A stretch of DNA of 64,000 nucleotides from Chlorobiaceae bacterium (GTDB lineage: Bacteria; Bacteroidota; Chlorobiia; Chlorobiales; Chlorobiaceae): assembly GCA_013335405.1 (NCBI GenBank), contig JAAXVR010000001.1:124001-188000 (forward strand), in the 5' to 3' direction. This document shows positions 6,907 through 14,371 of this stretch, piece after piece (the stretch's first letter is position 1; each line of letters starts with the position of its first letter). Under the pieces are notes generated by a model that was given only the letters and a program-made list of their open reading frames with translations, was not told where the DNA came from and searched no databases. The position numbers and the translations under genes are program-made.

Positions 6907-9900
6907 ATGGCTGACAAATTTGCAGAGTACCCATCCAGTAAATCATACAGTGAAGTAGAAACCGAAATACTGGCTTACTGGAATGAGAACGGGATTTTTC
7001 AAAAGAGCCTCGAAAAGAAACCGGCGGGGCCTATATATTCGTTTTATGAAGGCCCGCCGACCGTGAACGGCAAACCGGGCGTGCATCATGTTTTCAGCCG
7101 CACCATCAAGGATGTGGTATGCCGCTACAAGACCATGCAGGGCTTCCGTGTTCCGCGTATGGCAGGGTGGGATACCCACGGTCTTCCGGTGGAGATATCC
7201 GTCGAGAAAAAGCTGGGACTCAAGAACAAGGCGCAGGTCGAGGAATACGGCGAGGGGGAGTTCAACCGGGAAGCGCGTTCGCTTGTCTACCACCATATCG
7301 AGGACAACCGTGAAGGATGGGGAAAGCTAACCGAACAGATGGGTTACTGGGTCGATATGGACCACCCCTACATAACATGTGAAAACAACTATATCGAGTC
7401 GGTCTGGTGGGCACTCAAGACCATTTTCGAAAAGGGGCTGATCTACAAGGATTACAAGATCGTTCCGCAGGACCCGAAATCGGAGACAGTCCTCAGTTCC
7501 CATGAGCTTGCCCTCGGGTACCGCGAAGTGAAGGACCCGAGCATCTATGTGAAGTTCAGGCTGAAAGGTTCCGACGAATCGTTCCTTGTCTGGACAACCA
7601 CCCCATGGACGCTGATTTCCAACGTGGCGCTCTCGGTAGGGGCTGATATCGAGTATGTGAAGGTCAGGCACAGTGGAAGCGGGGAAGCGTTCATTCTCGC
7701 TCAGTCGCGCCTGCAGGTACTCCTTGAAAAGAACGAAGCGGGCGAATCGTTCTGGCAGGTCGAGAAGACCATGAAAGGCAGTGAACTGGAGGGCCTTGAA
7801 TACGAGCCGCTTTTCAGCTACATCCAGCCTTCGAGGAAATGCTGGTACGTAACCTGCGGGACGTTCGTTTCGACCGGGGACGGCACCGGTGTCGTGCACA
7901 TCGCTCCCGCGTTCGGGGCCGACGACTACGAGCTGGCGAAGAAGTACGATCTTCCGATGCTGCAGCCGGTTGCGAGAAACGGATGTTTCACGTCAGAGGT
8001 AAGCGATTACGAAGGCGTGTTTTTCAAGGATGCCGATCCCGATATCATCCGTCAGCTCAGGGAAGCCGGAAAGCTCTACCGAAAGGAGACCATTACCCAT
8101 ACCTACCCGTTTTCCTGGCGCTACGACGTGCCGGTGATCTACTATGCGAGGGAGTCCTGGTATATTCGGACGACTGCAATTGCCGACCGCATGGTGGAGC
8201 TGAACAAAACCATCAACTGGTGCCCTCCCGAGATCGGTTCGGGAAGGTTCGGCAACTGGCTCGAGGAAAACAAGGACTGGGCCCTCTCCCGTGAACGTTT
8301 CTGGGGATCCCCGCTTCCTCTCTGGGTTTCCGAGGAATTTTCCATCGGCGACAGCTCCGATTCGGGCAGAATCTTTGCCATAGGTTCCGTCGCAGAGCTG
8401 CGCGAAGGGTTCATCGACATTGATGGCGGGCGGCACGTGCTGGGAGAAGCGCTCGACGAAGGGCTGGTCGAGCTCGACCTGCACAAACCGTTCGTTGACC
8501 GCATCTATTTCATCAGGGAGGGCAAGCGTTTCAACCGAACCCCGGAACTCGTCGACGTCTGGTTCGACAGCGGTTCCATGCCGTTTGCCCAGCTCCATTA
8601 TCCATTCGAAAACCGGGAACTGTTCGAAAAGACTTTCCCTGCGGATTTCATTGCCGAGGGTGTTGATCAGACCAGAGGATGGTTCTACACGCTCCATGCC
8701 ATCTCGACCCTGATTTTCGACAAGCCGGCATATCGCAATCTTATCGTGAACGGCCATATCCTCGACCGTAACGGCCACAAAATGTCGAAATCGAAAGGTA
8801 ACGTCGTCAACCCGTTCGAAACCATGCAGCGTTACGGTGCCGATGCGCTGCGCTGGTACCTGCTTGTGACCAGCCCTCCCTGGAGGCCGAAGTCATTCAA
8901 TGCGGACGAGATCGAGGAAGAGCAGAGGAAATTCTTCCGTGCGTTCATCAACAGCTACAACTTCTTCGTGCTGTATGCGAACGTCGACGGTTTCCAGGGT
9001 TCAGAACCGCAAATCCCGCTTTCGGAACGTTCCGAACTCGACCGCTGGGTGCTCTCGTCCCTGAACACCCTCGTCGGTGGGCTCCACGCCCGCATGGAGC
9101 AGTACGATCTTACCGGTGCGGTGAGGCTGATCAACGATTTCATTGTCGACGACCTGTCGAACTGGTATATCAGGCGTTCCCGCAAACGCTTCTGGAAAAG
9201 CGACATGGGCCAGGACAAGCTCGCGGCTTACCAGTCCCTCTATACCGCTCTCGAAACCCTTTCGAGGCTGCTTGCGCCGTTCACACCGTTCATTGCCGAT
9301 CGCATCTGGCTGAACATGAATGGTGTCAGCGGGGTGGCCCGGCACACTTCGGTTCACCTCTCGGATTTTCCGATGATGGACCCCTGTGCCATAGACCTTC
9401 CGCTCGAGCGTCGCATGAAGAAAGCCCAGATCATCACCTCGCTTGTCCGCACCATGCGTGAAAAAGCCTCGATCAAGGTTCGTCAGCCGCTCAGGCGTAT
9501 CCTGCTCGCGGCGGGAGATGCGGCGGCGAGGGAGGAGTATGCACTGGTAGCGGATATCATCCTCGAAGAGGTTAACGTTCAGAAAATCGAATTTATCGAA
9601 GAGGAAGGCTCGGTAGTCAGCAAAAAGGTCAAGCCGAATTTCAAGGCCCTTGGCCCCCGGTTCGGCAAGGAGATGAAATCGCTCGCCGAATCGATACGGT
9701 GCATGAGCCACAAGCAGATCGGGAAGCTTGAAAAAGAGGGAATGGTTTCACTCGATTTCGATGGGAAGACGTTTGAAATTCTTCGCGGGGATGTCGAGAT
9801 CATGCACGAGGATATCGAAGGATGGCTCGTGGCATCCGATGAAGCTCACGGCATCATGGTGGCGCTCGATACTGAGATGAACGAGGAGCTCGAAATGCTG

Positions 9901-10164
9901 GGGCTGTCCCGGGAACTTGTGAGCCGCATCCAGTCACTTCGCAAGGAGAGCGGCCTGGAAATCACCGACCGCATCTGTCTTGCCATCGAGGGAACTGCGA
10001 AAGTTGTCGATGCAGTGAAGCGGAATGATGCGTATATTAAGGCAGAAACCCTCGCCACATCCCTCGAAATAACCCTGCTCGACGCATCAGTGCCGGTGTC
10101 GATGGATGAAGGGTCGGTGAACGGTGAAATATGCCGGTTATCGCTTGAAAAAAATGCAGGTTAA
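6907..10164 (+). CDS. ileS: Isoleucyl-tRNA synthetase, type 2, with altered HIGH motif
   Basis: Charges tRNA-Ile. Class I signatures are present, with KMSKS at residues 625-629 (HKMSKSKGN). The motif normally written HxGH reads GVHH at residues 58-61 (codons 7078-7089), with the first and third positions swapped relative to HxGH. The editing domain is recognisable from [15 protein letters not shown]. The 1085-residue length and the [18 protein letters not shown] region fit the eukaryote-like IleRS2 class, which tolerates mupirocin. Swapped GxHH motifs have been described in a subset of IleRS2 enzymes with extreme mupirocin resistance. The start ATG ([11 protein letters not shown]) is normal. 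The gene stands alone between a terminator and the dksA-like gene. Confidence 0.96.
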
Positions 10165-10173: not shown

Positions 10174-10223
10174 TAAAATCACTATTCTTACAGCATTTGT
10201 CAGAATCAGCAAATAGGTGCACT

Positions 10224-10658
10224 ATGACGAAAAAAAGCAACAGCGCCCTCAGGAAAGAAAACGAAATCGATGATGAACCGGTTCTCACCAAAACCTATCT
10301 GAGCGACGAAGAACTCGAGCATTTCAGGCAGATCCTGCTCAAGAGGCGGGACGAGGTTCTTCGCGACCTGGATATTCTTCGTTCTTCGCTTTCCGACGAA
10401 AACGTGGAGGATTCGATCAACTCGAACTACTCCATGCACATGGCTGACCATGGCACCGAAACCATGGATCGCGAACAGCGGTTCATGTTCATCGCAAGGG
10501 ATGAGAAATATATCGGCTATATCGATCAGGCCCTCGACAGGATAAGGAACAAGACTTACGGTGTCTGCGCAAAATCAGGCAAACCCATACCGAAGAAAAG
10601 GCTCGAAGCCGTTCCGCATACTGCAGTCCGTATCGAGTTCAAGCAGGGCAAGAAATAA
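10224..10658 (+). CDS. DksA/TraR-family regulator lacking zinc-binding cysteines
   Basis: A likely RNA-polymerase secondary-channel binding protein of the DksA/TraR family. The start at ATG 10224 has an AGGTG ribosome site 7-8 bases upstream and gives 144 residues. The coiled-coil N-terminal part (residues 27-60, LSDEELEHFRQILLKRRDEV) and the C-terminal TYGVCAKSGKPIPKKRLEAV block define the family. The usual Cys-x2-Cys...Cys-x2-Cys zinc finger is gone: only Cys115 remains, the second Cys position is Ser118, and no Cys follows. Such zinc-free forms are common in the Bacteroidetes/Chlorobi group. It has its own promoter and a shared terminator with purF. Confidence 0.85.
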   Translation: MTKKSNSALRKENEIDDEPVLTKTYLSDEELEHFRQILLKRRDEVLRDLDILRSSLSDENVEDSINSNYSMHMADHGTETMDREQRFMFIARDEKYIGYIDQALDRIRNKTYGVCAKSGKPIPKKRLEAVPHTAVRIEFKQGKK

Positions 10659-13061: not shown

Positions 13062-13074
13062 ATCGGTTTTTCCG

Positions 13075-13147
13075 TGGAGCTAAGGAGACTCGAACTCCTG
13101 ACCCTTTGCATGCCATGCAAATGCTCTACCAACTGAGCTATAGCCCC
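13075..13147 (-). tRNA. tRNA-Ala (anticodon GGC)
   Basis: A complete 73-base cloverleaf reads on the minus strand. The acceptor arm is GGGGCTA/TAGCTCC. The D arm is GCTCAGTTGGTAGAGC. The anticodon stem TTTGC/GCAAA encloses the loop ATGGCAT, so the anticodon is GGC at 13112-13114. The T arm is AGGAGTTCGAGTCTCCT and the discriminator is A. The 3' CCA is not encoded and would be added enzymatically. It reads alanine GCC/GCU codons. Confidence 0.96.
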
Positions 13148-14201: not shown

Positions 14202-14320
14202 AACGTGGGATTTGGGATCCGGGAATTCCCGCTTTCCACGTTCTGCAGCCCAGATTCCCATAAATAAGCTCCGGAGGAGCGGCATATCGGCAGCCCGGGG
14301 TGGGAACCCCGGGTAGAGGA
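14202..14320. repeat. Intergenic block of tandem hairpins, probable dispersed repeat
   Basis: The space between ftsX and nfo contains several palindromes: CGGGAATTCCCG (14220-14231) inside a CGTGG/CCACG stem, GCTCC-GGA-GGAGC (14268-14280), and CCCGGGG-TGGGAA-CCCCGGG (14294-14313). In translation the minus strand reads PGVPTPG-like, a pattern often seen in spurious open frames over dispersed intergenic repeats. Only one copy is in the window, so its repeat nature is inference. Confidence 0.5.
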
Positions 14321-14371
14321 ACAAATAAAAAACGGGTTTCCTTCCCCAAACCCCACATCCTCCCTCAGTCC

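Follow-up and report, generated by a model that had tools for sequence, protein, structure and literature searches.

G-x-H-H in place of HxGH in the type 2 isoleucyl-tRNA synthetase of a Chlorobium genome and across the sampled genomes of its phylum

The isoleucyl-tRNA synthetase (IleRS) encoded in the window, the whole stretch of 64,000 nucleotides analysed here, reads GVHH at the position of the catalytic HxGH motif, the first histidine of which class I synthetases as a rule cannot do without (PMC10485003). The locus raises the question of whether such an enzyme is a recently gained antibiotic resistance allele, a damaged or paralogous synthetase, a sequencing artefact or an ordinary housekeeping protein. 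Our analysis indicates that the gene almost certainly encodes the sole housekeeping IleRS of a Chlorobium, and that this type 2 enzyme (IleRS2), inherited vertically within the phylum, is an unremarkable representative of the G/AXHH subgroup. The features on which this reading draws are the following.

6907 to 10164, plus strand: ileS, type 2 isoleucyl-tRNA synthetase (IleRS2), 1,085 amino acids (TIGR00392, tree and single copy)
7078 to 7089, plus strand: GVHH replacing HxGH, residues 58-61 (sequence; in register with PDB 8c8w)
8779 to 8793, plus strand: KMSKS signature, residues 625-629 (sequence)
9553 to 10152, plus strand: C-terminal DUF5915 domain (PF19302), residues 883-1082 (Pfam, 180.9 bits)
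10197 to 10658, plus strand: DksA/TraR-like C4 zinc-finger protein, 3' of ileS (weak TIGR02890 and TIGR02420 matches, below cut-off)

The protein is a full-length match to TIGR00392: residues 10-875 score 941.7 bits, and the cut-off is 621.4. Bases 7078-7089 of the window, GGCGTGCATCAT, form the codons GGC GTG CAT CAT and encode GVHH, with the glycine at position 1 and the histidine at position 3 that define the G/AXHH subgroup at the sequence level (G or A at position 1, H at position 3). In phmmer alignments, the GVHH of the Chlorobium enzyme lies over that of PDB 8c8w (PGVHH over PGVHH), whereas 8c8u, 8c8v and 8c9d show PHVGH opposite the PGVHH of the window. A regular-expression search for H.GH finds nothing in the whole 1,085-residue protein, so that the exchange reported in a preliminary description of this DNA stands, and the residues it gave for GVHH and KMSKS are both correct, the former by its codons and the alignment to 8c8w, the latter by sequence.

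Several lines of evidence bear on the type of the enzyme. In phmmer searches with the window IleRS, the type 2 structures of P. megaterium and T. thermophilus reach 809-892 bits, more than twice the 369-381 bits of those of IleRS1 from S. aureus and P. megaterium. A maximum likelihood tree was built from 25 sequences, comprising 5 IleRS1, 2 HxGH IleRS2 (Paenibacillus and Sutcliffiella) and 18 GxHH sequences. The five IleRS1 are separated from the rest with support of 100/100, leaving the window IleRS among the IleRS2; the two HxGH IleRS2 split away at 99/98, and all 18 GxHH sequences fall on the same side of one branch (94/92). Two independent origins of GXHH have been inferred from a tree larger than the present one (PMC10485003). 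The window enzyme also contains, as LHYPFEN, the HYPFE motif of the eukaryote-like IleRS type (PMC4861432), and carries NGHIL where IleRS1 has HGF before KMSKS. Judged from the tree, the scores against structures and the presence of HYPFE without HGF, the window enzyme is a type 2 IleRS, as the preliminary description had proposed.

Within the tree, the window IleRS sits inside Chlorobiaceae, grouping with Chlorobium ferrooxidans and then with Chlorobaculum, Chloroherpetonaceae and Thermochlorobacter, and the ileS tree agrees with taxonomy inside the phylum. The nearest named relatives are Chlorobium, in line with the green sulfur bacterium suggested previously, and the organism is a Chlorobium. 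Its genome (2.47 Mb, 99.99% complete) holds a single ileS: searches with the protein and with TIGR00392 found no second copy, the other matches being far below the cut-off and corresponding to open frames of 906, 853, 727, 594 and 510 amino acids, the first three of which we interpret, on the grounds of their size and the way they match, as ValRS, LeuRS and MetRS. Elsewhere in the window lie its only tRNA gene, a tRNA-Ala (GGC) at 13074-13147 on the minus strand, and, at 14255-14330, one member of a repeat scattered through the host genome. The repeat measures about 50-75 bases and occurs there at least 20 times, with many copies near contig ends. Read on one strand, five copies score above the gathering threshold of the Rfam family Acido-Lenti-1 RNA (RF01687); the repeats may form a mobile family at which the assembly breaks off.

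The distribution of the motif was surveyed at increasing taxonomic breadth, the phylum being understood as Bacteroidota in the broad sense, including Chlorobiota and Ignavibacteriota. All 30 first-fetched ileS loci of the family encode GVHH. Among 80 named ileS loci, 64 have GVHH, 11 GIHH and 3 GLHH, and the other 2 begin downstream of the motif, while 60 ileS genes spread over the phylum comprise 49 with GIHH, 10 with GVHH and a single GMHH. Within the green sulfur bacterial order the form is GVHH; outside it, GIHH is commoner. A DNA pattern describing the motif in its context recovered G-x-H-H in 393 of 393 phylum genomes, representing 179 of 179 genera. The same pattern with HxGH, designed around the P-S/T-x-N-G of the IleRS2 context and blind to the P-Y-A-N-G of IleRS1, matched none of the 393. 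IleRS1 was covered in 148 genomes by a protein search, which recovered one ileS in each at E <= 1e-100, a threshold that leaves room for a divergent, weaker-scoring second copy. One phylum genome with a full ileS also contains, on a 5.6-kb contig, another ileS start with GxHH; only a partial gene fits on this contig, and the extra start possibly reflects contamination or a second copy.

Gene order is conserved as well. A C4 zinc-finger-like motif occurs 3' of ileS in 68 of the 69 related loci with enough flanking sequence, and in Parabacteroides the gene downstream of ileS is annotated as TraR/DksA. The conserved succession of ileS and a DksA/TraR-like gene, combined with the single copy, is the pattern expected of a housekeeping gene passed on by vertical inheritance.

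Natural G/AXHH IleRS2, their mupirocin hyper-resistance and its structural reason have already been published (PMC10485003). In their survey of 163 bacterial IleRS2, Brkic and colleagues (2023) counted 86 G/AXHH and 77 HXGH enzymes, the former being widely distributed among bacteria in a housekeeping role (PMC10485003). Natural members from S. griseus and D. radiodurans preserve catalysis with mupirocin Ki values in the millimolar range; specifically, the ALHH enzyme of D. radiodurans is fully active with a Ki of 6.6 mM, which falls 823-fold upon the change from ALHH to HVGH, and GxHH raises the Ki of other IleRS2 as much as 1000-fold (PMC10485003). These data agree with the earlier statement that GxHH confers extreme mupirocin resistance while activity is kept. 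Structurally, the histidine at position 3 replaces the first histidine in the catalysis of GXHH enzymes because their motif helix is shifted away from the adenine, and it would clash with mupirocin (PMC10485003). The study also reports a solved structure of a GVHH mutant of P. megaterium IleRS2. Chlorobiota, Bacteroidota and Ignavibacteriota are unnamed in the main text of that study, the tree of which probably includes such sequences.

Three other explanations of the locus can be weighed against these observations. The window gene could be a recently gained resistance allele, brought in by horizontal transfer or arisen by local mutation under pressure from mupirocin-like compounds in the habitat, and both the up to 1000-fold effect of GxHH on the Ki and the existence of plasmid-borne, mobile IleRS2 genes such as mupA lend this idea some appeal. 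It is nevertheless very improbable, given that the ileS tree tracks the taxonomy of the phylum, the gene order is conserved, the motif is found in every phylum genome searched and the host genome has no older ileS1. Equally improbable is that the gene encodes a degenerate enzyme or a paralogue, inactive or regulatory, with damage to its catalytic motif. The importance of the missing first histidine in class I synthetases speaks for such a protein, but the window gene is the only IleRS of a nearly complete genome, retains its full length, KMSKS and every domain, and carries a G-x-H-H motif that is invariant across the phylum sample; published GXHH IleRS2 enzymes are active. A sequencing or assembly error hiding a true HxGH, which would need two wrong codons, can be dismissed for practical purposes because G-x-H-H is present in every related genome sampled, each an independent sequence.

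We thus return to an ordinary, vertically inherited housekeeping IleRS2. By homology with the published GXHH enzymes, the histidine at position 3 of GVHH would assume the catalytic function of the first one, and the same residue would be expected to clash with mupirocin in the Chlorobium enzyme. The Chlorobium IleRS is accordingly placed among those predicted to be mupirocin-insensitive, because its published GXHH homologues are. The preliminary description found the motif noteworthy in a green sulfur bacterium and raised the matter of mupirocin-like metabolites in its waters. This view is not supported: G-x-H-H is ordinary, being a normal published type 2 form present in all 393 phylum genomes, and its invariance there means that no such metabolites need be invoked as its cause. 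Phylum-wide fixation argues against recent antibiotic adaptation in green sulfur bacteria. On balance, we favour, with some reserve, the view that GxHH has been the fixed form of IleRS2 throughout the phylum from the common ancestor onwards, with no reversion among the 393 genomes. In that case, intrinsic insensitivity to mupirocin at the target is predicted for the entire phylum, and GxHH would be better understood as an alternative active site of ancient origin than as a resistance trait under present selection. The motif itself being already known, what is mildly new is that it is completely fixed among the sampled phylum genomes, an observation relevant to the choice between an antibiotic adaptation and an ancient neutral alternative.

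Among the closest known systems are the IleRS2 of Chlorobium ferrooxidans, Chlorobaculum and Parabacteroides, which share with the window enzyme the clade, the GxHH motif and the order of ileS followed by a DksA/TraR-like gene. The staphylococcal plasmid-encoded, mupirocin-resistant MupA and MupB are likewise of the IleRS2 type; however, they are mobile acquired resistance genes, whereas the window ileS is chromosomal and the sole copy, and its scores of 845.6 and 815 bits place it outside both families, the NCBIfam exception cut-offs of which are 1900. On a Variovorax plasmid lies a class I tRNA ligase resembling IleRS1, short (about 850 amino acids), long-branched and with HLGH, the annotation of which reads simply 'class I tRNA ligase family protein'. 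The GVHH form of P. megaterium IleRS2 (8c8w; 891.6 bits) has its motif in register with that of the window enzyme and a common domain layout, but its GVHH is a laboratory exchange of a natural HVGH, whereas that of the window is natural. Finally, the IleRS2 of Streptomyces griseus and Deinococcus radiodurans (ALHH in the latter) are, as in the window, type 2 housekeeping enzymes with positions 1 and 3 of HXGH exchanged; these two, with measured Ki values, belong outside the phylum of Chlorobium.
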